Below are positions 330 through 22,762 of a stretch of 22,762 nucleotides of DNA, piece after piece; the first letter of the stretch is position 1, and each line of letters begins with the position of its first letter. The notes below the pieces were generated by a model. The model worked only from the letters and a program-made list of their open reading frames with translations, was not told where the DNA came from and searched no databases. The DNA is taken from the IMG/VR virus record IMGVR_UViG_3300006802_000626, positions 1 to 22,762 of that record. One strand, given 5' to 3'. The stretch is from a virus. Position numbers and translations under genes: made by a program.

Positions 330-559
330 ACCATCGCAAGTACGTGCGTGGCGTAGCACTACGCAAGAAGATCTTTGACGTTCTCATCGGTGCGTTCCTC
401 GGATCTGTCCTTGCGCTGTTCATGACGGTCATTCTTATTGAGTGGCTGTCAGGCTGTGGCGAGGGTGGCGAGTGCGTATTTATTCCGGTCAACGTACCCG
501 TTACCAACCCTGAAACAAAACCACAGAAGCTTGACATAACAAGCCGTTTCGTGGTATAA
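326..559 (+). CDS. Small single-span membrane protein
   Basis: The 77-residue product has a short basic N-terminus (RKYVRGVALRKK) and one hydrophobic helix at about residues 17-41 (FDVLIGAFLGSVLALF and following), then a short polar tail with two Cys. The positive-inside pattern predicts a cytoplasmic N-terminus and an outside C-terminus. An AAGGAGGG SD at 312-319 supports the ATG at 326. Its TAA stop (557-559) lies inside the -10 box of the promoter for the next operon, so the gene ends exactly where the next transcription unit begins. Function is unknown; such proteins in phages can be spanin-like, holin-like or superinfection-exclusion proteins, but nothing here discriminates. Confidence 0.7.
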   Translation: MNHRKYVRGVALRKKIFDVLIGAFLGSVLALFMTVILIEWLSGCGEGGECVFIPVNVPVTNPETKPQKLDITSRFVV

Positions 560-560
560 T
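531..560 (+). promoter_or_regulatory. Consensus sigma70 promoter for the hairpin-punctuated operon
   Basis: TTGACA at 531-536 and TATAAT at 555-560 are both perfect consensus hexamers, 18 bases apart, with an extended -10 TGG immediately before the -10. A second overlapping TATAAT sits at 560-565. The predicted transcription start is about 567-571. The 5' leader of the mRNA would therefore contain the first palindrome (610-627) before the SD at 636-640. Confidence 0.85.
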
Positions 561-609
561 ATAATCTACAGTGGTAAAACGTAGTAAATATTTATGTAGT
601 CCAACCCAT

Positions 610-627
610 GTTACCCCACGGGGTAAC
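610..627 (+). repeat. Palindromic hairpin copy 1
   Basis: GTTACCCCACGGGGTAAC is an 8-bp perfect inverted repeat around AC, extended by a T-A pair (609/628). It lies between the promoter and the SD of the DUF3150-like gene. No T-tract follows, so it does not look like a Rho-independent terminator. First of five copies. Confidence 0.95.
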
Positions 628-633
628 AAAACC

Positions 634-640
634 TAGGAGA
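634..640 (+). promoter_or_regulatory. SD site deciding the start at 647
   Basis: TAGGAGA lies 6 bases before ATG 647. It rules out the in-frame ATG at 608, which sits within hairpin copy 1 and has no SD. Confidence 0.7.
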
Positions 641-646
641 GTGAAG

Positions 647-1564
647 ATGATGAACTTAAGCCAACCCAACCTCGCACCGGAGATCTCGGTGCCAACGGTC
701 TCATCTAGCGCAATGCTGGTTGAATTGTCCATCGGTGCATGGTCCGGTCGCAAGAAAGACAAGCGTGCCACGGCCAAGGTCGAGCAAGACAACAAGGCCG
801 CAACCGGTGTAGCCAACGTGACCAAGAAGTTGCTCGGTGACTGTGCCGAGTTGGATGCCATCAACAAGTTTGTGGCTAACGTGCGGTCAATAAACTACGC
901 ATCGACCACGCCATGGTCCGACATCGGCTTGCGGCTATTGCCAACGGTGCGTTACTTCAAGTACCACGAGCAGATGACCGCACTGCGTGATGAGTTCTTT
1001 GCCAAACGTGATGCGTTTGCTGATGTGTATGACTGGGAGCGCACGCAAGCCCAAGTCAAGCTGGGTGACTTGTTCAACCCTGACGAGTACCCGACGGTGG
1101 AGCGCATCAAGCAAGCATTCCGCTTCAATATTAACTACATGCCCCTGCCCGAGGTCGGTGACTGGCGGGTGGAGATGGAGACATCAACCATCAACACGTT
1201 GAAGACTCATTACGAGGGGTTTTACTCCAATCAGGTGCAGACTGCGATGAACGACGTGTGGAAGCGCACCTTTGAGGCGTTATCTAAAATGAGTGAGGGG
1301 CTTGCACGCTACGGCACCAAGACCGACAAGGGCAACAAGCAGACATTCCGAGACTCACTGATTGAGAACGTGGTCGAGGTGACTGACTTGCTCAACGACT
1401 TCAACGTGACAAACAGCGTGCAGATGACCGAGATGAAAACACGGCTTGAAGATATGTTGCGAGGCGTAACACCGGACGCACTGCGTGAAGACGACTACTT
1501 ACGTGGTCAGACCAAACGGCAAGTGGACGAGATCATTAAGAACTTGCCATCTCTTGACATCTAA
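647..1564 (+). CDS. DUF3150-like conserved phage protein
   Basis: The 305-residue product matches my recollection of the DUF3150 family: an N-terminal stretch reading LVELSIGAWSGRKKDK (about residues 24-39), a following THTTPWSD-like region (TTPWSD at about 87-92) and a central LGDLFNPDEYP motif. I cannot run a profile search, so the family call rests on motif memory. The start at ATG 647 is chosen for its SD; ATG 650 is also possible. It is first in an operon with a MoxR-type ATPase and a VWA protein, a neighbourhood in which DUF3150 proteins recur in phages. No catalytic residues are evident. It may be the client or adaptor of the ATPase/VWA pair. Confidence 0.7.
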   Translation: MMNLSQPNLAPEISVPTVSSSAMLVELSIGAWSGRKKDKRATAKVEQDNKAATGVANVTKKLLGDCAELDAINKFVANVRSINYASTTPWSDIGLRLLPTVRYFKYHEQMTALRDEFFAKRDAFADVYDWERTQAQVKLGDLFNPDEYPTVERIKQAFRFNINYMPLPEVGDWRVEMETSTINTLKTHYEGFYSNQVQTAMNDVWKRTFEALSKMSEGLARYGTKTDKGNKQTFRDSLIENVVEVTDLLNDFNVTNSVQMTEMKTRLEDMLRGVTPDALREDDYLRGQTKRQVDEIIKNLPSLDI

Positions 1565-1585
1565 CTACAACGATTTATCAACCAT

Positions 1586-1603
1586 GTTACCCCACGGGGT
1601 AAC
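1586..1603 (+). repeat. Palindromic hairpin copy 2
   Basis: Identical to copy 1 (centre AC), extended by T1585-A1604. It lies 22 bases after the stop of the DUF3150-like gene and just before the ACAAGGAGA SD of the ATPase gene. The upstream flank ACCATG is shared with copy 3, and copy 1 has the similar CCCATG. Confidence 0.95.
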
Positions 1604-1621
1604 ACTACAAGGAGAAGTAAA

Positions 1622-2737
1622 ATGAGCAAAGCATCTAACCTTTACGCACTCGGCCTTGAGCAAATCAAGGATGCCATTCTTGCGGCTGGCGACGAGCAGA
1701 CAACCCTAGTACAGGGTCACATGGGCACAGGCAAGTCATCTATTCTTAAGATGTTAGCCGCTGAGTTGCCCGACCACGTGCCGTGCTACTTTGACTGCAC
1801 GACCAAAGATCTTGGTGACATCTCGGTGCCTAAGCTGATGGCAATCGACACCAACGACGACGGGACCGAATGCGTTCGGTTTGTACCCAACGAGGAGTTG
1901 GGCTTGCACTTTCAAAAGCCTGTCATCTTAATGATTGACGAGTACGGCAAGGCCAATCGTGCTGTGCAGAATGCCATGCTTCGCATCATGCAGGAGCGCA
2001 AGCTGAGCCATAACGACATAAAGGGTTACATCTTCGCCACAACAAACCTTGGGGCCGAGGGTGTTGGTGACATCTTGTTACCACATGCGAGGAATCGCAT
2101 ATCAATAGTGACTTCTCGCAAGCCATCGTGGGAGGAGTGGATCGAGTGGGGCTTGAACAACGGCATTGACTTCGTGCTACTTGGCTGGGTCAAGGAGATG
2201 CGAGACGTGCTGTTCCAATCCTTTGAAGACATCAAGGAGCCGTTCGACAAGGAGGGCAACCCGACCAACCCGTACGTCTACCATCCACAAGTACCAATGA
2301 CTTCGTTCGTTACACCGAGATCGCTGGAGGGTGCGAGTCGTTGGTTGAAGAAGCGTGACCGGATAGACGACCAAACATTAACAGCTTTCCTGATGGGCAC
2401 CATCGGTGAGCGTGGCGGCATGGACCTGATGACACATACCAAGTTGGTCAGTCAGTTGCCAACCATCGAGAGCATCAAGAAAGATCCTAAGACAGCAATG
2501 GTCCCATCGTCTGCGGCGGCTACGGCTATGGTCGTGTTGCGTGCGCTGGGTGCGGTGGACCGTGACTGGATCGACGCATGGGTCGAGTACATGAACCGTC
2601 TCGACAAGGAGGCCCACGGCTTATTTGTTAATCACGTGCGTCAGAAGAACTACGCCAAGCAGTCCATCGTGATGAGCAATAAGAAGTTTCGTGATTGGGC
2701 CATGGCTAATAACTATTTGTTTGCCGCTGACAAGTAA
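1622..2737 (+). CDS. MoxR/CbbQ-type AAA+ ATPase
   Basis: The 371-residue protein has an AAA+ core: Walker A GHMGTGKSS (32-40), Walker B VILMIDE (101-107), sensor-1 ATTN (139-142) and candidate arginine-finger residues in HARNRI (155-160). The compact N-terminal core with no extra N-domain, and the adjacent VWA gene, point to the MoxR/CbbQ/NorQ group, whose members use ATP to remodel a partner together with a VWA protein. The C-terminal half (about 200-371) would hold the helical lid and a phage-specific extension. SD ACAAGGAGA sits at 1607-1615. The partner substrate is unknown; related systems act in metal-cofactor insertion and enzyme activation. Confidence 0.88.
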   Translation: MSKASNLYALGLEQIKDAILAAGDEQTTLVQGHMGTGKSSILKMLAAELPDHVPCYFDCTTKDLGDISVPKLMAIDTNDDGTECVRFVPNEELGLHFQKPVILMIDEYGKANRAVQNAMLRIMQERKLSHNDIKGYIFATTNLGAEGVGDILLPHARNRISIVTSRKPSWEEWIEWGLNNGIDFVLLGWVKEMRDVLFQSFEDIKEPFDKEGNPTNPYVYHPQVPMTSFVTPRSLEGASRWLKKRDRIDDQTLTAFLMGTIGERGGMDLMTHTKLVSQLPTIESIKKDPKTAMVPSSAAATAMVVLRALGAVDRDWIDAWVEYMNRLDKEAHGLFVNHVRQKNYAKQSIVMSNKKFRDWAMANNYLFAADK

Positions 2738-2742
2738 ACCAT

Positions 2743-2760
2743 GTTACCCCTCGGGGTAAC
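2743..2760 (+). repeat. Palindromic hairpin copy 3
   Basis: GTTACCCCTCGGGGTAAC: the same stem with centre TC in place of AC, extended by T2742-A2761. It lies 5 bases after the ATPase stop and ahead of the ACAAGGAGA SD of the VWA gene. Confidence 0.95.
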
Positions 2761-2781
2761 AACAACCACAAGGAGATTCTA

Positions 2782-4044
2782 ATGTTAGCAATCAACCTAA
2801 CCTTAACTGCCAATCAGCGCATCGAGAAAGCAGTCAACAAGATCATTGACAAGGCCACGGCTCTTGCCAGTGTGATGATGGTCGGTGAGCGCACAATCGT
2901 CGAGGGTTTGCCCACGGCTTGCACCAACGGTCGGGACGAGAAGTATGGCTCGGAGTTTATCGAGGGCATCAACGACTCGGAACTCAGGTTTACGATCCTC
3001 CACGAGACGTTCCACAAGTTGTACAAACATCTCATCACGTGGCGTAACCTGTATGAGGAGGACCCTGACCTTGCCAACCAAGCGTGTGACTACGTCATCA
3101 ACCTCAAGATCAAAGACGAGTTTGGTAGCGTGATGATGGACGACGGCAAGCCGTTCATCACTCTGTTCGACTGGGTCTTAATCGACGAGCGGTTTCGTGG
3201 CATGAGCGCACAGGAAGTGTTCAACATCTTGAAGAAAGAAAGCACCGAACCTCAGGGTGATGGTGGCAATGGTGATGACAAACAAGGAGAAGACGATGGG
3301 CAAGGTGGTAGAAACGGGAAACCCCAACGGGGCGGTAAGCAGGGTCGTCCAATGGATACGCACGACTGGGACGGTGCCAACGAAATATCGCAGGAGGAGG
3401 CCAAAGAACTTGAGCGTGAAATCGATGAGGCGATCAGGCAGGGTGCGCTGGTCGCTGGCAAGCTAGGCTCGGGCGGTCTTCGTGACATCAACGAGATCCT
3501 CCAACCCAAGGTTGACTGGCGTGAGGTGTTGCGTGACTTCATCTGTGCAACATGTTCGGGTAAAGATTACTCAACATGGCGACGCCCCAACCGTCGGTTC
3601 ATCTCGGCTGGTATCTACATGCCATCAAGTATCAGCGAACAAGTTGAAGAGTTGGTGGTCGCTATCGATACGTCCGGTTCCATCGGTGGGCGTGAGTTGG
3701 CTAACTTCTTGGGTGAGGTCAAGGGTATATCTGACATCGCCAAGCCGAACCGAGTGCGCTTGCTGTACTGGGATACCGAGGTCGTTGCCGACGAGGTGTA
3801 CGAGGGCGATGCAGTCTGTCGCATCATCGAGTCCACTAAACCGGCTGGCGGAGGTGGCACTGACGTGAACTGTGTCTGTGAATATCTTGTTGATCGATCC
3901 ATCAAGCCTCAGGCTGTGGTCATCCTGACTGACGGTTACCTCGGTAGTACGTGGGGTAAGTGGTCGGTGCCTACCCTGTGGTGCATCCTCAACAACCGAT
4001 CTGCCAAGCCAACCGTCGGACAAGTTGTCCACATCAACGACTAA
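2782..4044 (+). CDS. Metallopeptidase-like plus VWA domain protein (DUF2201-type)
   Basis: The 420-residue protein has three parts. The N-terminal domain (about 1-150) carries HETFH (74-78) with a further H at 83, an HExxH zincin-like motif as in the N-terminal domain of DUF2201 proteins. A Gly/Asp/Lys-rich linker spans about 155-200. The C-terminal VWA domain (about 288-420) has the MIDAS motif DTSGS (296-300), a Thr in GGGGTD (356-361) and LTDG (382-385). VWA proteins of this type are encoded beside MoxR ATPases and act as their metal-dependent adaptors. SD ACAAGGAGA lies at 2768-2776. Whether the zincin motif is catalytic cannot be judged here. Confidence 0.85.
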   Translation: MLAINLTLTANQRIEKAVNKIIDKATALASVMMVGERTIVEGLPTACTNGRDEKYGSEFIEGINDSELRFTILHETFHKLYKHLITWRNLYEEDPDLANQACDYVINLKIKDEFGSVMMDDGKPFITLFDWVLIDERFRGMSAQEVFNILKKESTEPQGDGGNGDDKQGEDDGQGGRNGKPQRGGKQGRPMDTHDWDGANEISQEEAKELEREIDEAIRQGALVAGKLGSGGLRDINEILQPKVDWREVLRDFICATCSGKDYSTWRRPNRRFISAGIYMPSSISEQVEELVVAIDTSGSIGGRELANFLGEVKGISDIAKPNRVRLLYWDTEVVADEVYEGDAVCRIIESTKPAGGGGTDVNCVCEYLVDRSIKPQAVVILTDGYLGSTWGKWSVPTLWCILNNRSAKPTVGQVVHIND

Positions 4045-4055
4045 ACCAAGGACGT

Positions 4056-4073
4056 GTTACCCCTCGGGGTAAC
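4056..4073 (+). repeat. Palindromic hairpin copy 4
   Basis: GTTACCCCTCGGGGTAAC, with the stem extended to 10 bp by G4054-C4075 and T4055-A4074. It lies in the 77-base gap between the VWA gene and the gene at 4122. Confidence 0.95.
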
Positions 4074-4107
4074 ACAACCAACCACATGTTTATTCAAGTC
4101 AAACTAC

Positions 4108-4114
4108 AAGGAGA
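4108..4114 (+). promoter_or_regulatory. SD site deciding the start at 4122
   Basis: AAGGAGA lies 7 bases before ATG 4122 in the operon's recurrent ACTACAAGGAGA context. It favours ATG 4122 over in-frame upstream ATGs at 4086 and 3960; the latter would overlap the VWA gene and read through the hairpin. Confidence 0.75.
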
Positions 4115-4121
4115 TTCGCAA

Positions 4122-5084
4122 ATGTATAGGCACACTCTTGTTAAGTCCGTACTAAGTTATATGAGCAAATACTCTAAAGACACCGAGCCGGAACTGACGT
4201 GGGGAGAGCGTGAGATATTGTTACCATTTCACGACGGCATGTTGATACCCCGACAGCTACATAACTTCATGGCTGTGCTACGCAATCAGATGCGTGGGAT
4301 TGAGTTCGGTATCAACGCACACTGCGGTCAGGAGTTCATCGGTGGGCGGCACTGCTACGTTGAGGTGTGGGCGTACTTTCCCAACGAGCCATATCTTATG
4401 GGTCGCATCGGCTACGGTGACCCGACGGTGAACAAGGACGCAACCAGTAAACAGTACTGGGTTTACTCTCGCACTATATCGAATCAGAAGTTTGCGGAGC
4501 ATCGTGACCAGTACTACATGAAGACTGGTAAAGATCTTGGCAAGATGGTCAAGGAAGCTAAGCGCCACTTGCGTCCGTACTCGCCCGTCGAGTGTGCCCA
4601 AGAAACTGCGTCACGGTTTCTCTCTTCTGTATCGGACGGGGCCAACAATGTGCGTAACAGACAGCAAAATGCCGAGTACAAGATCAAGACTCACGACAAT
4701 TTATTCCGTGAATTAAAACATCTTTACACGTTGAGTGAGGACGAGCAGTATCAGTTTTTGTCAAGTGACTTGCGGTCTGCCATCGGTACCCTGATCAAGG
4801 CAGATGAGGAGTGGCGTACCGAATCCGTTCGCCCAGTGCCAGCCGCATTTGTATCCGTCAATGTGATTCGTGGCGAACAGCGATTCGATGTGGTCGAAGT
4901 CGATAATGCCAAGGGCACGTGGTCTAAGATGAACAAGACAACCAAGTATTACTACAACCATGACATACCCGAAGATCTTATGGGTAAGCTGTCGGTGCTG
5001 TCGATTCTCGATGTCGGTGGCTACACCGAGCGGGTTGGTCAGCGGGTGAGTGAGACAATGTTTTGGGTTGAACTTGATCAATGA
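4122..5084 (+). CDS. Unknown protein of the hairpin operon, long paralogue
   Basis: The product is 320 residues and I do not recognise its family. It has no membrane segments, signal peptide or nucleotide-binding motif. It is mixed alpha/beta in look, rich in Tyr, Arg and Glu. The last 20 residues, YTERVGQRVSETMFWVELDQ, resemble the end of the next protein (GIGRRISENVFWVFKPDQ), suggesting a shared C-terminal domain and a tandem duplication. The frame is open upstream to 3960, but the SD supports ATG 4122. The stop overlaps the next start by 4 bases (ATGA at 5081). Shared hairpin and SD signals suggest co-expression with the ATPase and VWA proteins. Confidence 0.75.
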   Translation: MYRHTLVKSVLSYMSKYSKDTEPELTWGEREILLPFHDGMLIPRQLHNFMAVLRNQMRGIEFGINAHCGQEFIGGRHCYVEVWAYFPNEPYLMGRIGYGDPTVNKDATSKQYWVYSRTISNQKFAEHRDQYYMKTGKDLGKMVKEAKRHLRPYSPVECAQETASRFLSSVSDGANNVRNRQQNAEYKIKTHDNLFRELKHLYTLSEDEQYQFLSSDLRSAIGTLIKADEEWRTESVRPVPAAFVSVNVIRGEQRFDVVEVDNAKGTWSKMNKTTKYYYNHDIPEDLMGKLSVLSILDVGGYTERVGQRVSETMFWVELDQ

Positions 5085-5473
5085 CAGTCCACACTATCAA
5101 CCTACAGGTGCGTGACTTTGTTGGTGACTTGTTGATTAATAACCTCAGCGAGTTCGGCAAGAAGCACGCACTTGATACGATCATACGGCACGACCTTGGT
5201 GCGATGCGGTATGAGATTAAACTTTACGATAAGGAGATATTATTTCGTGTTGAGATTGAACGTTCTCGGATAACTGTTGTCTGTTTAAGTACAGAATGTG
5301 TTGACCCTCCTGAGGTGGGGGAGTATACTTCTGTTAACGATCTACCTAACTGGGTCCAAGAACGTATCGCTGTGTTACTGTTAATGAGTAGTAAGCCTCC
5401 AACGCAATTCGTTGAAGGCATTGGTCGAAGAATATCGGAGAATGTTTTTTGGGTTTTCAAGCCCGATCAATAG
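5081..5473 (+). CDS. Unknown protein of the hairpin operon, short paralogue
   Basis: The 130-residue product is translationally coupled to the gene before it by an ATGA overlap, and it is the only gene in this cassette without its own palindrome upstream. Its C-terminus carries the pattern GxRxSExxFWV followed by DQ at the very end, which the preceding 320-residue protein also has; both show an aromatic and hydrophobic lead-in (LPNWVQERIAVLLLM here, EDLMGKLSVLSILDVGG there). It could be a shortened duplicate or an interacting half of the same fold. No catalytic motif is visible and function is unknown. Confidence 0.72.
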   Translation: MTVHTINLQVRDFVGDLLINNLSEFGKKHALDTIIRHDLGAMRYEIKLYDKEILFRVEIERSRITVVCLSTECVDPPEVGEYTSVNDLPNWVQERIAVLLLMSSKPPTQFVEGIGRRISENVFWVFKPDQ

Positions 5474-5490
5474 TCCCGATCTGTCGGTGT

Positions 5491-5508
5491 GTTACCCCTC
5501 GGGGTAAC
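5491..5508 (+). repeat. Palindromic hairpin copy 5
   Basis: GTTACCCCTCGGGGTAAC, with the longest stem: T5490-A5509, G5489-C5510 and T5488-A5511 extend it to 11 bp. It precedes the SD of the HTH/membrane gene. No further copy was found downstream in the window. Confidence 0.95.
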
Positions 5509-5523
5509 ACATCTTTTAACTAC

Positions 5524-5535: not shown

Positions 5536-5856
5536 ATGCCTCGCAAAAAACTAAGCAAGTCACAAAAGATTCGCAACATGTTAGACGCTAACATCCCCGT
5601 GCGTCAGATCGCTGAGAAGATGTCGGTCCCTCCACAAACCGTCTACAACATCCGTTACCAATACAACAAGCGTAAAGGTCTCGGTGCTTTGCCTCCCCGC
5701 AAGAAAGCGATAGTAGTTCCCAAAGAAGCGAACAGAGTTTCCATGAAGCCCGAAGTCCAGCAGTTCCCTACGCAAAAAGAGCAAGAGACAAGCTTGGTGC
5801 CGTGGTTACTCGCCATCTGCGCTTTTTTAATCATCATTATTTTTCTATCTAAGTAA
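5536..5856 (+). CDS. Helix-turn-helix protein with C-terminal membrane anchor
   Basis: The 106-residue product starts with a basic segment (PRKKLSKSQK) and a helix-turn-helix at about residues 19-41 (IPVRQIAEKMSVPPQTVYNI), in the style of resolvase or sigma-region-4 HTHs. A Lys/Pro/Gln-rich linker follows to about 86, then a hydrophobic helix at about 88-104 ending with Lys at the last residue. It therefore reads as a tail-anchored DNA-binding protein. It closes the hairpin operon and overlaps the VRR-NUC start by one base (TAATG at 5854-5858). It could tether phage DNA to the membrane or act as a membrane-bound regulator; both roles are inferred. Confidence 0.78.
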   Translation: MPRKKLSKSQKIRNMLDANIPVRQIAEKMSVPPQTVYNIRYQYNKRKGLGALPPRKKAIVVPKEANRVSMKPEVQQFPTQKEQETSLVPWLLAICAFLIIIIFLSK

Positions 5857-18056: not shown

Positions 18057-18084
18057 AGCCCTCCGAAGTTCGGAGGGCTTTTTT
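18057..18084 (+). terminator. Rho-independent terminator of the rightward genes
   Basis: AGCCCTCCGAA pairs with TTCGGAGGGCT around G18068 (in practice an 8-9 bp GC-rich stem), followed directly by six T (18079-18084). It ends rightward transcription, and the T-run overlaps the stop codon of the convergent minus-strand gene. The minus-strand side lacks a T-tract, so it works mainly for the plus strand. Confidence 0.9.
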
Positions 18085-21000
18085 ATTGGTACTCCTCAGG
18101 ATCAGTGGAGTACTCAAGGTCATCATCGTATTCGGCGATGCTACGCATCAGTTCAGGACGCATGTTCTTACTGATCGTGATGCCGTGATACATGTTTGCG
18201 GTGGTGCGCATGTGCTGTTCTAGCGAATTAATGATCGTATCAGGGAGAATGGCGGCAGTCGGATGCTTGGAATTAAATTTCCGGATCTTTTCCATAAGAT
18301 CTTTCTGAGCCGCACCGTCACCTTGGCGTAGCGCCACGTAGTATTGACGTAGCAACTTGGTCCGAGTCTCATTGGTAGTGCGGTCGATACGCTTAATGTT
18401 GGCATTAATTTCCAACTGACGCACGTACTCAGCAGGGGCAAATCCAAGCCCTTGTGCGAAGACATTCCAAGGCCCAAGCTCACCTGTAATCGGATCACCA
18501 CGCAAGGTCTGTGGGCCTTCAGCCCCATAGCGCATAGACTTCAGGACATTACCCATCGAAGACGGGAGCATCTGCTCGACACCACGCTCGACAAAGCCGT
18601 CGTTAATAAGATCCAAACCTCTTTCCATACGACTGGCTACACCGAGAACCGGACCACCAAGCATCTCCATCGTGCTAAGCATGAAGCTTTGCTGATCTTT
18701 GACGGTGTTGTCACGGAATATTAAGTCAGATAATCCCATGCGAGTGGCAACATCCACACCGAATACAGCGTTACCGAGGCCCGAGTACATGGTCTCACCA
18801 AGCCACTTGCGTGCAACTTCATCAGCCTTATCTTCATCGTCGTCTGTAAACAAGTTGTACGCCATAGCGGCAATGCCGTAGAGCGGAAGCCCCTGCACAC
18901 CAGCCATGAGTCCAGCCGAGAGGTAGATGCCACCGATCTGCTTCATAGCCTGACGACGAACCTCAGGATCTTTATCTTTCAATGCTTCTCTAGCAGTCTT
19001 AAACAGCATGTAGTACATCGACACGCCGTACCGCTTAAACATGAAGAGGACTTTACCGAGTCCGGTTTGGGCAATCCTTGGAGCCGCCGATGCAACTGTG
19101 CCGCCGTTAGTAAGTTCAGTTACGTAAATGGCGTAGTCAGCCGCTTCTTCCTGTGCGGCCTTTCCGGTTTTACCTGCTTTTTTCAGTCTGGCAAGCTCAA
19201 GTTCGTAGGCGGCAATCATCGCAACCTGACGGTTCATACGCTCACCATGGTGGAAGACAAAACCGGATGCGGCATTGACCTTGGTCAGAATATTTGTGCT
19301 GTCATCAACGTCTAGTACGTCATACACAATCGAACGATTAAGTTGCCCACGAGTAAGGGCTAAATCGGAAAGCGTCTTAAGGTGCGCCAGTTCCGGGTTT
19401 TTGTCGAAGTCGATGTTGTCCAGCGACGGGAACGCCCGTACCTTTGCTTTCTTTTCTCCGGTATCGGTCGGGACGAGCATTTCAACTTCTCGGTCGAATC
19501 CACTTTGGGTGAAGATTCGGGTTGCTCTTCCGAGTGCTTTTGTTGTTTCGGCATAACCGTATTTACCCCCAAGATAAGGCATTACGACCAACGGTATCTG
19601 GGATAAGTTTACTAACGCCGACGATATGTTGAAGCCCAAAGTCATGTTAAAGCCGAAAGATGTTGCCAGTCTGGCCCATAAAGGAACGTTCGGCGAGATA
19701 GCAAAGTCAATCCGCTTCTCAAGTTCTTTCATGTACTCAACTGCAACTTCTTCGTTACCTTGCTCTTTAACATGGTCCCGCATCTCACCACGGAGTGCCT
19801 CTAACTTATTGGCGTACTCCAAATTAGAAAGCTGGCGGGACAGGTTATAAGTCTTAGTCCGAAGGGCACCGATGGCATCACGCTTAAATCCAAGCGTGCC
19901 TTTTCGTCGCCGGAAAGACTGGGCAAAGGAGGTCTCTGGCAGTGCGTCTAAGAATAACCGCATCACCTGATCAACCGCTTTGGAATCAACTTTATTTACT
20001 TCCATCACCCGCAAGACGCTGTTTACAAACGAAGTGGGTGGGGCGTTTTTGTAAGAAATATCGGATAGGTTGGCAAATTTTTGGATCTGCTCAGCACCTG
20101 ATGCCTTGAGTTCTTTAACAGCATCGTCCCGCTCATACTTGGTCTCAAACGCCTCGACGAACAATTCTTTCGTTTTGGTGCGTGGATCAGTGGCGTGGTA
20201 CGACAGCCAGTATTTACCCGAACGTGTTAACGGGAAGTAAGGCTCAATGGCACCTTTGGCAAAAAGCTTTTGATAAATTTCTGTCTTAACTTTTCTTGCG
20301 GTCTCTTTATCAGTCAAAGATTCATCGATGCGAGAATCCAACACACGCTTAACATCTTGATACAAGGCGTTGTAAGTATCACGCATCTGGTTGTAAACAG
20401 ATTGACCCCCCGAAGCTTTTAACTTCTTCCAGTTTGCCTGTAGCTTGTCCCAAGCATCCAACTTCTCGGGGTCTTCAATATAAGAAGTACGGGGCTTACT
20501 GGGGTCAACTTGATCCAAGGTGCTGGTGTAGACCACCTCATTAAAGGTGTCCAGCATATCGGGATGGTCTTTTGCCCACTGAGCAGTGCGCTTAATAATT
20601 GGCTCAATGCTTTGGTTCCGTTTGCTTTCAGCACCCGCACGCTCCCCAACAAGGTCATCCAACCTCTTTGCCATAGGAATGTACGTACGGGAGATGTCCA
20701 CCAACGCATTAAGCGGAAGTGCCGACATGACCACGTCTTTGATCGTATTCGGCACAGAGCCTGTGAAAAACTCGTGGAAACGGGCAACCTTTTCTTTGTC
20801 CAATTGCGGGAAGCTGTGAACCCGTTCTGCTAACTTATTAAAGACAGCCCCACCATTGCCGAATGTAGCGGCGGCGTACAACATTCCTGCATCACGATTG
20901 CTTGGGGCAGGAGACAAAATGGCGTCAATAAGGCGAGTTGCCCGGTCAGCCGCAGTCTCAACACCACGGGTGGGTAAGCCGATTAGCCTACGGACAAAGT

Positions 21001-22762
21001 TACTGATGGTGTTGGCAAACCGGTCCCATGCCGAGATCTTGCCGCCTTTCGGATTGATGGCGTGCAGTTTGACTTGGAACTCAGAATTAGAGAACGCCTC
21101 AGCCACAAACTCGTCAAGACTTGTTGCACCGTATGCAGTGTCAAGCGAATCTTTAACATCTTGATACAACTGGTTAAGCTGTTTAGTAACAGGATGTGAC
21201 TTGTTATCAAGTATGTGAGATGTTGCCGCATGGACTGACTCGTGCAACAACACGTGAGGCGACATGCCTAATTCAGCGTCTATCTTGATGGTGTCTGTCT
21301 TGGGGTCGTAGAATCCAGCAACCGTTTGACCCGCATCGTCTGTAAGGTTTTGAATTACCTCAACTTTTGTGTCGCCTATGGTTGCGGCAATGCGCATAGC
21401 GGCACTACCCATAGTAGAGTCAAGCCTACTACCCATAGTACGTAAGGCACCACGTAGATCGCCAGCTTGGATCAAGCCACGCACTGCCGGGTGCAGTGGC
21501 ATCCCAAGGTCAATGATGGCGGTGATCTCAAGCTTTTTCTTTTCCGGTCTTCCTTCTCGCACAACGTCTGTAAATGTTGTGGGTCTGGGGCGTTCTTTCT
21601 CAAGCTCTTTTTCTCGTGTTTCCCAAAATTCTTTAAGTTCCGCTTCAGTCCAAGACGGGGTAACTTCCGGTGCGACTTTCTTGCGGCGAACTTTTGGCTT
21701 GCCAGTCTTTGGCTCGGCCTTAGCTATGTTTTCTTGGATGACTTTAGAGATAGCTTCTTTCTCAGACATACCTTTATCAATGTAAGTCTGCATCCGTTCT
21801 GCGGCTTTGTCGCCATAGAAATAGGCGAGGTCCGTAGTCGTTGGTTGAGAAGTTGGCGACGAAATTAAACGTTGAAGTGCTTCATCCGTAAAGGTGTTCT
21901 TGATCTCTTCTTGTGCGTTAACAAGTTTAACCAAGGCACCTTTAGCCTCATTACTAAGATTGTCGTTAACCCAATCTCTGGCTTTACGTGCATTCTCCCC
22001 GCTCATGCCTCGGAAGAAAGCGGCCTCAGCTTCACTCTCGGTCGTGCGTCTAAAGAGTGGTGGGTCATAAACAAGGTCGAATGCGATGTTAAGTAGGTTG
22101 TCAACAACCCGTCGCATCTTCTCAAAATAGATACGAGCCGCCTTGGCGGCGGGCTTGAGTTCCATCGGTGCCGCATTCAACAAACTTGTGATTGCTTGCA
22201 CATCTTCTTTTGGGGGGCCAAAGGCCGTACCAATGTCGGACTTAATGATGTCGCTGTAAGACCCGCTAATAATTTTCTCAAAGCTGACCAACGGCTCAGA
22301 AGCAAGTTCTTGCCAAGCCTTGTTACCTTTTCCTTCGGCTTCTTCTACAGTTTGAGTAGTCTCATCAGGAGGTGGTTTTTTACCCTCTTCGGTAGGGGGA
22401 GCTTTAGGCTTAGTAGGAGTAGGCTTTTTAGCCACGCCTTTAGCAGTTCTTTCAGCACCTCGACCAGCACCTCTCGGCTTAGTCTCTTTAGCGGTCTTCT
22501 CAGTTTTCTTAGTTTCTCCCGCCAATTCATCTTCCAACTCCTTTTGTAGATCTGCTTGCTCTGCGGCGGTCAGGTCTTCATCTACTGTAATGTCTGGCTT
22601 TCTTTCTCGTGATTTATCAGCAGTAGTGCGTTTCTTAGCGCCAGCCAATCCCTCAGTTGGAGGTGCCTTAGGTTCTTCGGCACCTTTAGCTTTACTTGGT
22701 TCGGCTCGTTCTCCAACTCCGACACCACCCTCAGGGCCAACTCCAACTCCGGTTGGCTCAAC
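18083..22762 (-). CDS. Giant polyvalent virion (ejection) protein with embedded zincin, 5' partial
   Basis: The frame stays open to the right edge: the first visible start-like codon (TTG at 22648) is preceded by at least 38 further in-frame codons, so the gene is truncated by the window and the visible product is 1,559 residues. Counting from that TTG, a Lys/Pro/Glu-rich low-complexity segment spans about 1-110, a zincin-like HESVH lies at 469-473 (21230-21244), a long helical region covers about 620-960, hydrophobic stretches occur near 990-1025 and 1235-1265, and a charged C-terminus ends DPEEYQ. This architecture resembles large polyvalent proteins carried in phage particles and ejected into the cell. 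It converges on the replication genes. Confidence 0.82.
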   Translation of the reverse strand, partial: VEPTGVGVGPEGGVGVGERAEPSKAKGAEEPKAPPTEGLAGAKKRTTADKSRERKPDITVDEDLTAAEQADLQKELEDELAGETKKTEKTAKETKPRGAGRGAERTAKGVAKKPTPTKPKAPPTEEGKKPPPDETTQTVEEAEGKGNKAWQELASEPLVSFEKIISGSYSDIIKSDIGTAFGPPKEDVQAITSLLNAAPMELKPAAKAARIYFEKMRRVVDNLLNIAFDLVYDPPLFRRTTESEAEAAFFRGMSGENARKARDWVNDNLSNEAKGALVKLVNAQEEIKNTFTDEALQRLISSPTSQPTTTDLAYFYGDKAAERMQTYIDKGMSEKEAISKVIQENIAKAEPKTGKPKVRRKKVAPEVTPSWTEAELKEFWETREKELEKERPRPTTFTDVVREGRPEKKKLEITAIIDLGMPLHPAVRGLIQAGDLRGALRTMGSRLDSTMGSAAMRIAATIGDTKVEVIQNLTDDAGQTVAGFYDPKTDTIKIDAELGMSPHVLLHESVHAATSHILDNKSHPVTKQLNQLYQDVKDSLDTAYGATSLDEFVAEAFSNSEFQVKLHAINPKGGKISAWDRFANTISNFVRRLIGLPTRGVETAADRATRLIDAILSPAPSNRDAGMLYAAATFGNGGAVFNKLAERVHSFPQLDKEKVARFHEFFTGSVPNTIKDVVMSALPLNALVDISRTYIPMAKRLDDLVGERAGAESKRNQSIEPIIKRTAQWAKDHPDMLDTFNEVVYTSTLDQVDPSKPRTSYIEDPEKLDAWDKLQANWKKLKASGGQSVYNQMRDTYNALYQDVKRVLDSRIDESLTDKETARKVKTEIYQKLFAKGAIEPYFPLTRSGKYWLSYHATDPRTKTKELFVEAFETKYERDDAVKELKASGAEQIQKFANLSDISYKNAPPTSFVNSVLRVMEVNKVDSKAVDQVMRLFLDALPETSFAQSFRRRKGTLGFKRDAIGALRTKTYNLSRQLSNLEYANKLEALRGEMRDHVKEQGNEEVAVEYMKELEKRIDFAISPNVPLWARLATSFGFNMTLGFNISSALVNLSQIPLVVMPYLGGKYGYAETTKALGRATRIFTQSGFDREVEMLVPTDTGEKKAKVRAFPSLDNIDFDKNPELAHLKTLSDLALTRGQLNRSIVYDVLDVDDSTNILTKVNAASGFVFHHGERMNRQVAMIAAYELELARLKKAGKTGKAAQEEAADYAIYVTELTNGGTVASAAPRIAQTGLGKVLFMFKRYGVSMYYMLFKTAREALKDKDPEVRRQAMKQIGGIYLSAGLMAGVQGLPLYGIAAMAYNLFTDDDEDKADEVARKWLGETMYSGLGNAVFGVDVATRMGLSDLIFRDNTVKDQQSFMLSTMEMLGGPVLGVASRMERGLDLINDGFVERGVEQMLPSSMGNVLKSMRYGAEGPQTLRGDPITGELGPWNVFAQGLGFAPAEYVRQLEINANIKRIDRTTNETRTKLLRQYYVALRQGDGAAQKDLMEKIRKFNSKHPTAAILPDTIINSLEQHMRTTANMYHGITISKNMRPELMRSIAEYDDDLEYSTDPEEYQ

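Follow-up and report, generated by a model that had tools for sequence, protein, structure and literature searches.

Genome-specific palindromes in the early region of uncultured phages co-vary with C4, a candidate DNA-binding protein

Cluster O (Corndog-type) mycobacteriophages carry a 17-bp repeat, TGTTCGG-NNN-CCGAACA, for which the authors predicted a dimeric DNA-binding protein and left the function open (PMC4351075). On recount, we found 28 copies of this repeat between 21 and 70 kb of phage Firecracker. The stoperators of Cluster A phages (L5/Bxb1) are 13-bp asymmetric, oriented sites that are read by the monomeric immunity repressor of these temperate phages, which blocks elongation (PMC6550527, PMC9283540). 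Cluster K phages have a 13-bp asymmetric repeat, SAS, locked 3 to 7 bp from the start codon, and inverted repeats just upstream of starts, ESAS, with imperfect 17-bp arms and 4- to 13-bp spacers (PMC3203893). We describe here a set of dispersed palindromes in the early region of a group of uncultured phages and the protein that probably reads them.

We analyzed the whole 22,762-base virus record IMGVR_UViG_3300006802_000626 (the window). Its early cassette is listed in Table 1; the DUF3150-like gene forms one family with relatives in 92 loci. A megablast of the window against named phages gave no match, and the MoxR protein is only 23% identical to its nearest counterparts in named phages. For the terminase of one relative (L073), the nearest sequences were those of 023Pt_psg01, Pelagibacter phages HTVC027P and HTVC023P, and phage DSL-LC04, at 44 to 47% identity. 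A MoxR search of genome contigs returned no relatives and therefore gave no prophage or host link. The record has a single long leftward gene, a large ORF at 18083-22648 (1,521 aa) that probably encodes a virion protein.

Table 1. Coordinates of the palindromes, promoter and cassette genes in the window
Feature	Coordinates	Strand	Description
Sigma-70-like promoter	531..560	+	TTGACA-18-TATAAT, 5' of copy 1; perfect consensus -35 (531-536) and -10 (555-560); consensus match only
Palindrome copy 1	609..628	.	TGTTACCCC-AC-GGGGTAACA, leader of DUF3150 gene
DUF3150-like gene, target of copy 1	647..1564	+	Pfam PF11348, E=0.0011, below curated cut-off
Palindrome copy 2	1585..1604	.	AC centre, DUF3150-MoxR gap
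MoxR-like AAA ATPase gene, target of copy 2	1622..2737	+	PF07728 above cut-off; phrog_1297, E=3.9e-36
Palindrome copy 3	2742..2761	.	TC centre, MoxR-VWA gap
VWA/DUF2201 gene, target of copy 3	2782..4044	+	PF13203, E=8.5e-29; PF09967, E=1.4e-18
Palindrome copy 4	4054..4075	.	TC centre, 10-bp arms, gap between VWA gene and gene 4
Gene 4, no assigned function, target of copy 4	4122..5084	+	Protein cluster 0
Gene 5, no assigned function	5081..5473		Overlaps gene 4
Palindrome copy 5	5488..5511	.	TC centre, 11-bp arms, gap between gene 5 and HTH gene
HTH_23 protein, C-terminal membrane-like tail, after copy 5	5536..5856	+	PF13384, E=2.4e-6

An exact scan of the record placed GTTACCCCWCGGGGTAAC at 610, 1586, 2743, 4056 and 5491, and no further match was found in the record at up to three mismatches. 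Shuffled sequences gave an expectation of 0.03, and 0 of 100 shuffles reached the observed count. Scan and shuffles both bear out the sequence-only reading that led to this work, in which five palindromes each precede a cassette gene and occur nowhere else in the record. That reading had also described identical 8-bp arms around one variable base. The 8-bp arms are there, but the centre between them is a dinucleotide, giving the form TGTTACCCC-WC-GGGGTAACA in all five copies, and the true arms extend to 9 bp in copies 1 to 3 (TGTTACCCC/GGGGTAACA) and further in copies 4 and 5. The proposed shared Shine-Dalgarno (SD) sequence, ACAAGGAGA, follows copies 2 to 5 (at 1607, 2768, 4106 and 5522), but it is absent after copy 1 and also occurs within the VWA ORF at 3282. 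The palindromes end about 18 to 47 nt before the next start, and there is none between the overlapping genes 4 and 5. A viral-contig scan gave one exact match elsewhere, within an ORF of an unrelated contig, which we took as chance.

G+C-rich stems that follow stop codons could be intrinsic terminators, and copy 5 fits a loose terminator pattern when read along the coding strand. The earlier statement that no T-tract follows the palindromes is largely right: it applies to copies 1 to 4, read in the coding direction, and copy 5 is marginal. Copy 1 lies in the leader of its own promoter, as had been proposed, some 40 nt past the expected transcription start. Moreover, separate T-tailed terminators adjoin palindromes in related phages, where some arms, such as TGTATACATATGTATACA, are A+T-rich. 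The missing T-tracts and the leader position of copy 1 agree with the original judgment against termination, and we consider that the palindromes are almost certainly not terminators.

We assembled 99 related contigs from IMG/VR by MoxR searches (19 + 80). About 75 of the 99 contigs, which are non-independent samples with some fetched more than once, had their own repeated palindrome at matching places. Palindromes were present in nearly all relatives holding enough of the early region, and several loci first scored as having none hold a degenerate palindrome. The commonest palindrome in the relatives was TGTTAGTG-NNN-CACTAACA; other half-sites were GTTAGGG, GTTAGGC, GTTATAC, GTTAGTC, GTTATCC, CCTTACA, CCTGACC, CTAGTCG, TGTATACA, ATTAGGTA and GTCTAAC. 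Scored against the half-site of their own phage, 541 sites were perfect, 36 had one mismatch and 49 had two, compared with 0, 13 and 291, respectively, for scrambled half-sites (five per locus). Absence of the repeat from relatives with the same genes had been expected to count against a function; the exact sequence is indeed absent from them, but position-matched palindromes of other sequence are present. We found no second contig with the window half-site GTTACCCC, and on these comparisons the exact window sequence is private to this phage.

Relatives carry 3 to 13 copies, which extend from the divergent junction before a gene that we call C4, through the DUF3150, MoxR and VWA genes, to the early genes that follow. 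In five near-complete genomes of 58 to 67 kb, searched piecewise, the palindromes were confined to the early stretch. Between tandem genes, a site most often directly adjoins the stop codon, its far end lying 12 to 28 nt before the next start, with a long tail; over all relatives, the median distance to the start was 28, with a wide spread. In some phages the palindrome falls within the first codons of DUF3150 (e.g., L079:9060). Gene starts in the relatives are approximate, and counts of sites inside ORFs are therefore soft.

Other repeats accompany the palindromes in these contigs. Conserved hybrid sites, GTTAGTG-N3/4-CCCTAAC, join halves of two different half-site types and almost always face the same way (L085:2513, L086:4647, L089:284 and L092:2738). 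A second repeat, GAAACCAGTTC-N5-GTCGCGNTGAGCC or similar, occurs 4 to 10 nt after many palindromes in a noncoding hub, often 2 to 4 times (L096:8180-8480, L097:7480-7800, L034:6860-7040 and L065:8120-8260). ACCAGTTC was found at 96 unique sites in 56 loci, some of them before the ribosome-binding site of an SNF2-like gene. Direct repeats of AATGTTC/GAACATT lie in A+T-rich DNA beside the hub and resemble origin iterons (L054:7390-7550, L079:8530-8560 and L065:8290-8370).

The palindromes of a genome are replaced as a set, and this holds even where two phages have MoxR and DUF3150 proteins of about 100% identity. L052 and L053 are identical in MoxR (100%) and DUF3150 (100%, 297 aa), nearly so in TerL (99.6%), and 95 to 97% identical in DNA over most of the region, and every palindrome is replaced between them. 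Their C4 proteins are just 77% identical. C4 is one uncharacterized protein of about 170 residues (range, about 165 to 215 aa) encoded by the first gene of the early operon. L008 and L009 are likewise 95 to 97% identical in DNA save for a gap over C4, and the protein in the C4 slot of L009 is a distant C4 homologue (E=5e-12 against a profile that excludes it). In pairs with MoxR at least 93% identical, the median C4 identity was 0.90 when the half-sites were the same and 0.31 when they differed; the other genes remained at or above 0.73 in such pairs, except the often short c8 (0.86 versus 0.58, n=3).

The placement of the palindromes at gene borders, in a region of rapid gene turnover, would also suit linkers for recombination or gene exchange that have no dedicated protein reader. 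However, the copies all change together while the flanking genes are 95 to 100% identical, they are private where exchange linkers should be common to phages, and they co-vary with C4 and its helix (see below). Linkers of this kind are therefore a very improbable explanation. Two proteins of the cassette had been put forward as binders, and neither fits. Homologues of the HTH protein occur in only 7 loci, so it is not a general reader of the sites, and the DUF3150-like protein is 100% identical over 297 aa between two phages with completely different palindromes.

Both C4 and the palindrome family were absent from L058 and from the stretches searched of HTVC023P and DSL-LC04. L024 has palindromes, but the protein in its C4 slot was not recognized by the C4 profile. 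The C4 slot of L058 (4761-7336) holds tandem paralogues of 214 and 200 aa, possibly a replacement system, and this phage has GTCCCA...TGGGAC-like repeats of its own. Another phage has two C4 paralogues (L088:5896-6423 and L088:7393-7980). For held-out loci, we made two C4-only scans with two clade alignments, the full alignment A2 being too diverse for a collection scan. These scans gave 51 unseen C4 loci, and 48 of the 51 had palindromes. The nearest known C4 predicted the half-site in 47 of 48 loci versus 41 of 48 for the commonest class, only a modest gain because that class already makes up 85%, and retrieval was biased to known motifs because the scan patterns held parts of the C4 helix. 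In the relatives, C4 lies just beyond the position that matches the left edge of the window. Because the record begins partway through the early region, C4 is missing from the window; by synteny, its own C4 would lie off that edge. With no C4 in the window and no second contig sharing its half-site, the link to C4 in this phage is therefore drawn from synteny with the relatives.

C4 gave no convincing match to Pfam, PHROGs, PDB sequences or named phages. An AlphaFold2 model of the L079 protein was all-helical (pLDDT, 92.8), with a 32-residue helix that carries RRYWQQQIGARRNDFKRQL; in the model of the L052 protein, from a second clade, the corresponding helix is at residues 81 to 112. Structure searches returned nothing significant (best Foldseek E, 2.2; VIA Z at most 4.6), and no structural match confirming DNA binding by the C4 model was found. 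By these searches, C4 is a previously undescribed family. At matched overall identity, the helix at residues 89 to 108 follows the half-site far more than does the rest of the protein (rank test, p=1.4e-4; the pairs are non-independent and the value is indicative only). Helix identities for same versus different half-sites, again at matched overall identity, were 0.88 versus 0.63, 0.66 versus 0.47, and 0.43 versus 0.29. Particular motifs pair with particular half-sites: WQQQ-type with GTTAG, I/VQQT with GTTATAC, and TTEM with TGTAGTC. One contig (L146:2752-4556) has TGTTAG sites with three inner-base versions (GGG, GGC and GTG); in its C4 helix, GSQ replaces GSK, perhaps relaxing specificity.

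The palindromes could act as DNA or, once transcribed, as RNA stem-loops near the ribosome-binding site that are processed, protect mRNA ends or are bound by an RNA-binding protein. As RNA, the window copies form stable stems (-11.7 to -21.4 kcal/mol), most cassette copies lie between a stop codon and an SD sequence, and loops of 3 to 5 nt occur within one genome, all consistent with a hairpin. However, the sequence of the stem, beyond its pairing, is fixed within a genome and changes with a protein. In the GTTAGTG family, the 3-nt centres avoid an initial G and a final C and have mostly C or G in the middle, and reverse-complement partners are about equally frequent (CCG 24/CGG 19, TCG 10/CGA 9 and TCA 7/TGA 7), a symmetry for which RNA loops have no reason. 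Single mismatched pairs showed no preference for G.U (8 G.U-compatible, 11 A.C/C.A and 20 T.C), and mismatched copies in L041 and L029 have folds barely more stable than those of shuffled sequences. The palindromes had no Rfam match. In all 13 regions that have both an exact site and a strong C4 promoter (at least 10 of 12), the nearest site lies 11 to 43 bp upstream of the -35 of the C4 promoter and is thus outside the C4 transcript. The symmetric centres, the mismatch types and the sites upstream of the C4 promoter all argue for a site recognized at the DNA level, each half of which is read on its own. Among the roles first proposed, the DNA-binding site is favored: its two halves behave like half-sites in DNA and vary in step with a single protein. 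The evidence speaks against RNA processing, protection of mRNA ends and an RNA operator, and we regard an RNA hairpin as improbable.

We propose that the palindromes are a dispersed array of DNA operators over the early genes, probably read by C4, which most likely restrains early transcription, its own included. C4 presumably binds the palindrome as a dimer, with one subunit per half-site and the basic helix around its [KR]RxWQQQxG[SA][RK] motif placed on the half-site. The main awkward fact is that the spacer varies by 1 to 2 bp within a genome in 16 of 75 loci, which is unusual for a rigid dimer. There are sites close to the C4 promoter, a short way downstream of that of DUF3150 and in front of one cassette gene after the next, and restraint of early transcription is therefore the most likely effect. 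C4 would act at numerous places, in part by standing as a roadblock in the path of elongating polymerase, and would regulate itself through the sites near its own promoter. The roadblock type of restraint is favored by analogy with the stoperators of Cluster A (PMC6550527).

The array may be as we describe and C4 may instead activate transcription, or organize or replicate DNA as a nucleoid-like, partition or origin-binding protein. The site of C4 itself is usually upstream of -35, where activators are found as typically as repressors, and the -35 is strong in all 13 cases given above. The noncoding hub that separates the C4 operon from DUF3150, with 2 to 4 sites and iteron-like AATGTTC repeats, also suits activation or organization. 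Nevertheless, the distances to -35 are out of helical phase, most sites are far from promoters, within the gene run or at the 5' end of an ORF, and the number and spacing of sites follow gene starts rather than one locus. We consider activation or organization possible but less likely than restraint. We found no integrase or serine recombinase domain in 12 records, and lysogeny is therefore unlikely.

Half-site and helix change together, which would give many specificities among near-identical phages, as expected if fast change of specificity lets a phage escape the C4 of co-infecting relatives. Each virus of this large uncultured group of bacterial viruses appears to have re-matched its docking sequence and its C4. 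A broader proposal, to which we give somewhat less than even weight, is that C4 is the founding member of a new family of proteins that bind DNA sequence-specifically through a single long basic helix, whose residue-to-base code could be deciphered. Widespread, uncultured and apparently lytic phages would then use dispersed operators as an "immunity-type" system, with specificity switching so fast that near-identical phages ignore each other's C4. C4 and its half-sites offer a testable protein-DNA recognition code with many natural variants. If C4 is a repressor, immunity-like specificity would be evolving in phages that appear strictly lytic, and competition between phages in natural waters might be predictable from sequence.

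These palindromes resemble the Cluster K SAS and ESAS repeats in preceding a subset of non-structural genes (PMC3203893). However, their distance from the start is loose rather than fixed at 3 to 7 bp, and some lie inside ORFs or upstream of promoters. They share with Cluster A stoperators the many dispersed sites for one phage protein (5 copies in the window and 3 to 13 in relatives), mostly away from promoters, and the joint divergence of site consensus and protein between phages (PMC6550527, PMC9283540). In contrast to the asymmetric stoperators, they are perfect dyads with symmetric centres; C4 has no match among known families, and we detected no integrase. The repeat closest in form is that of Cluster O, with perfect arms, a free unoriented 3-bp centre, many copies, frequent placement between genes or at their 5' ends, and no integrase (PMC4351075). 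The layout is the same, but instead of the arm TGTTCGG our phages have TGTTACCCC in the window and TGTTAGTG-NNN in many relatives. The Cluster O repeat is one sequence reported cluster-wide and spread over the genome, structural genes included, whereas ours is limited to the early region with a half-site per phage. The C4 profile gave no homologue in those stretches of Cluster O genomes that were searched (best E, 0.34, not significant). Dispersed phage palindromes such as the Cluster O repeat have lacked a known reader, whereas dozens of natural replacements here single out one candidate gene, and one helix within it, that co-varies with the sites. The nearest precedents are thus the Cluster A stoperators and the Cluster O repeat: dispersed phage operators are a kind already known, and what is new is an undescribed protein family, C4, as their candidate reader.
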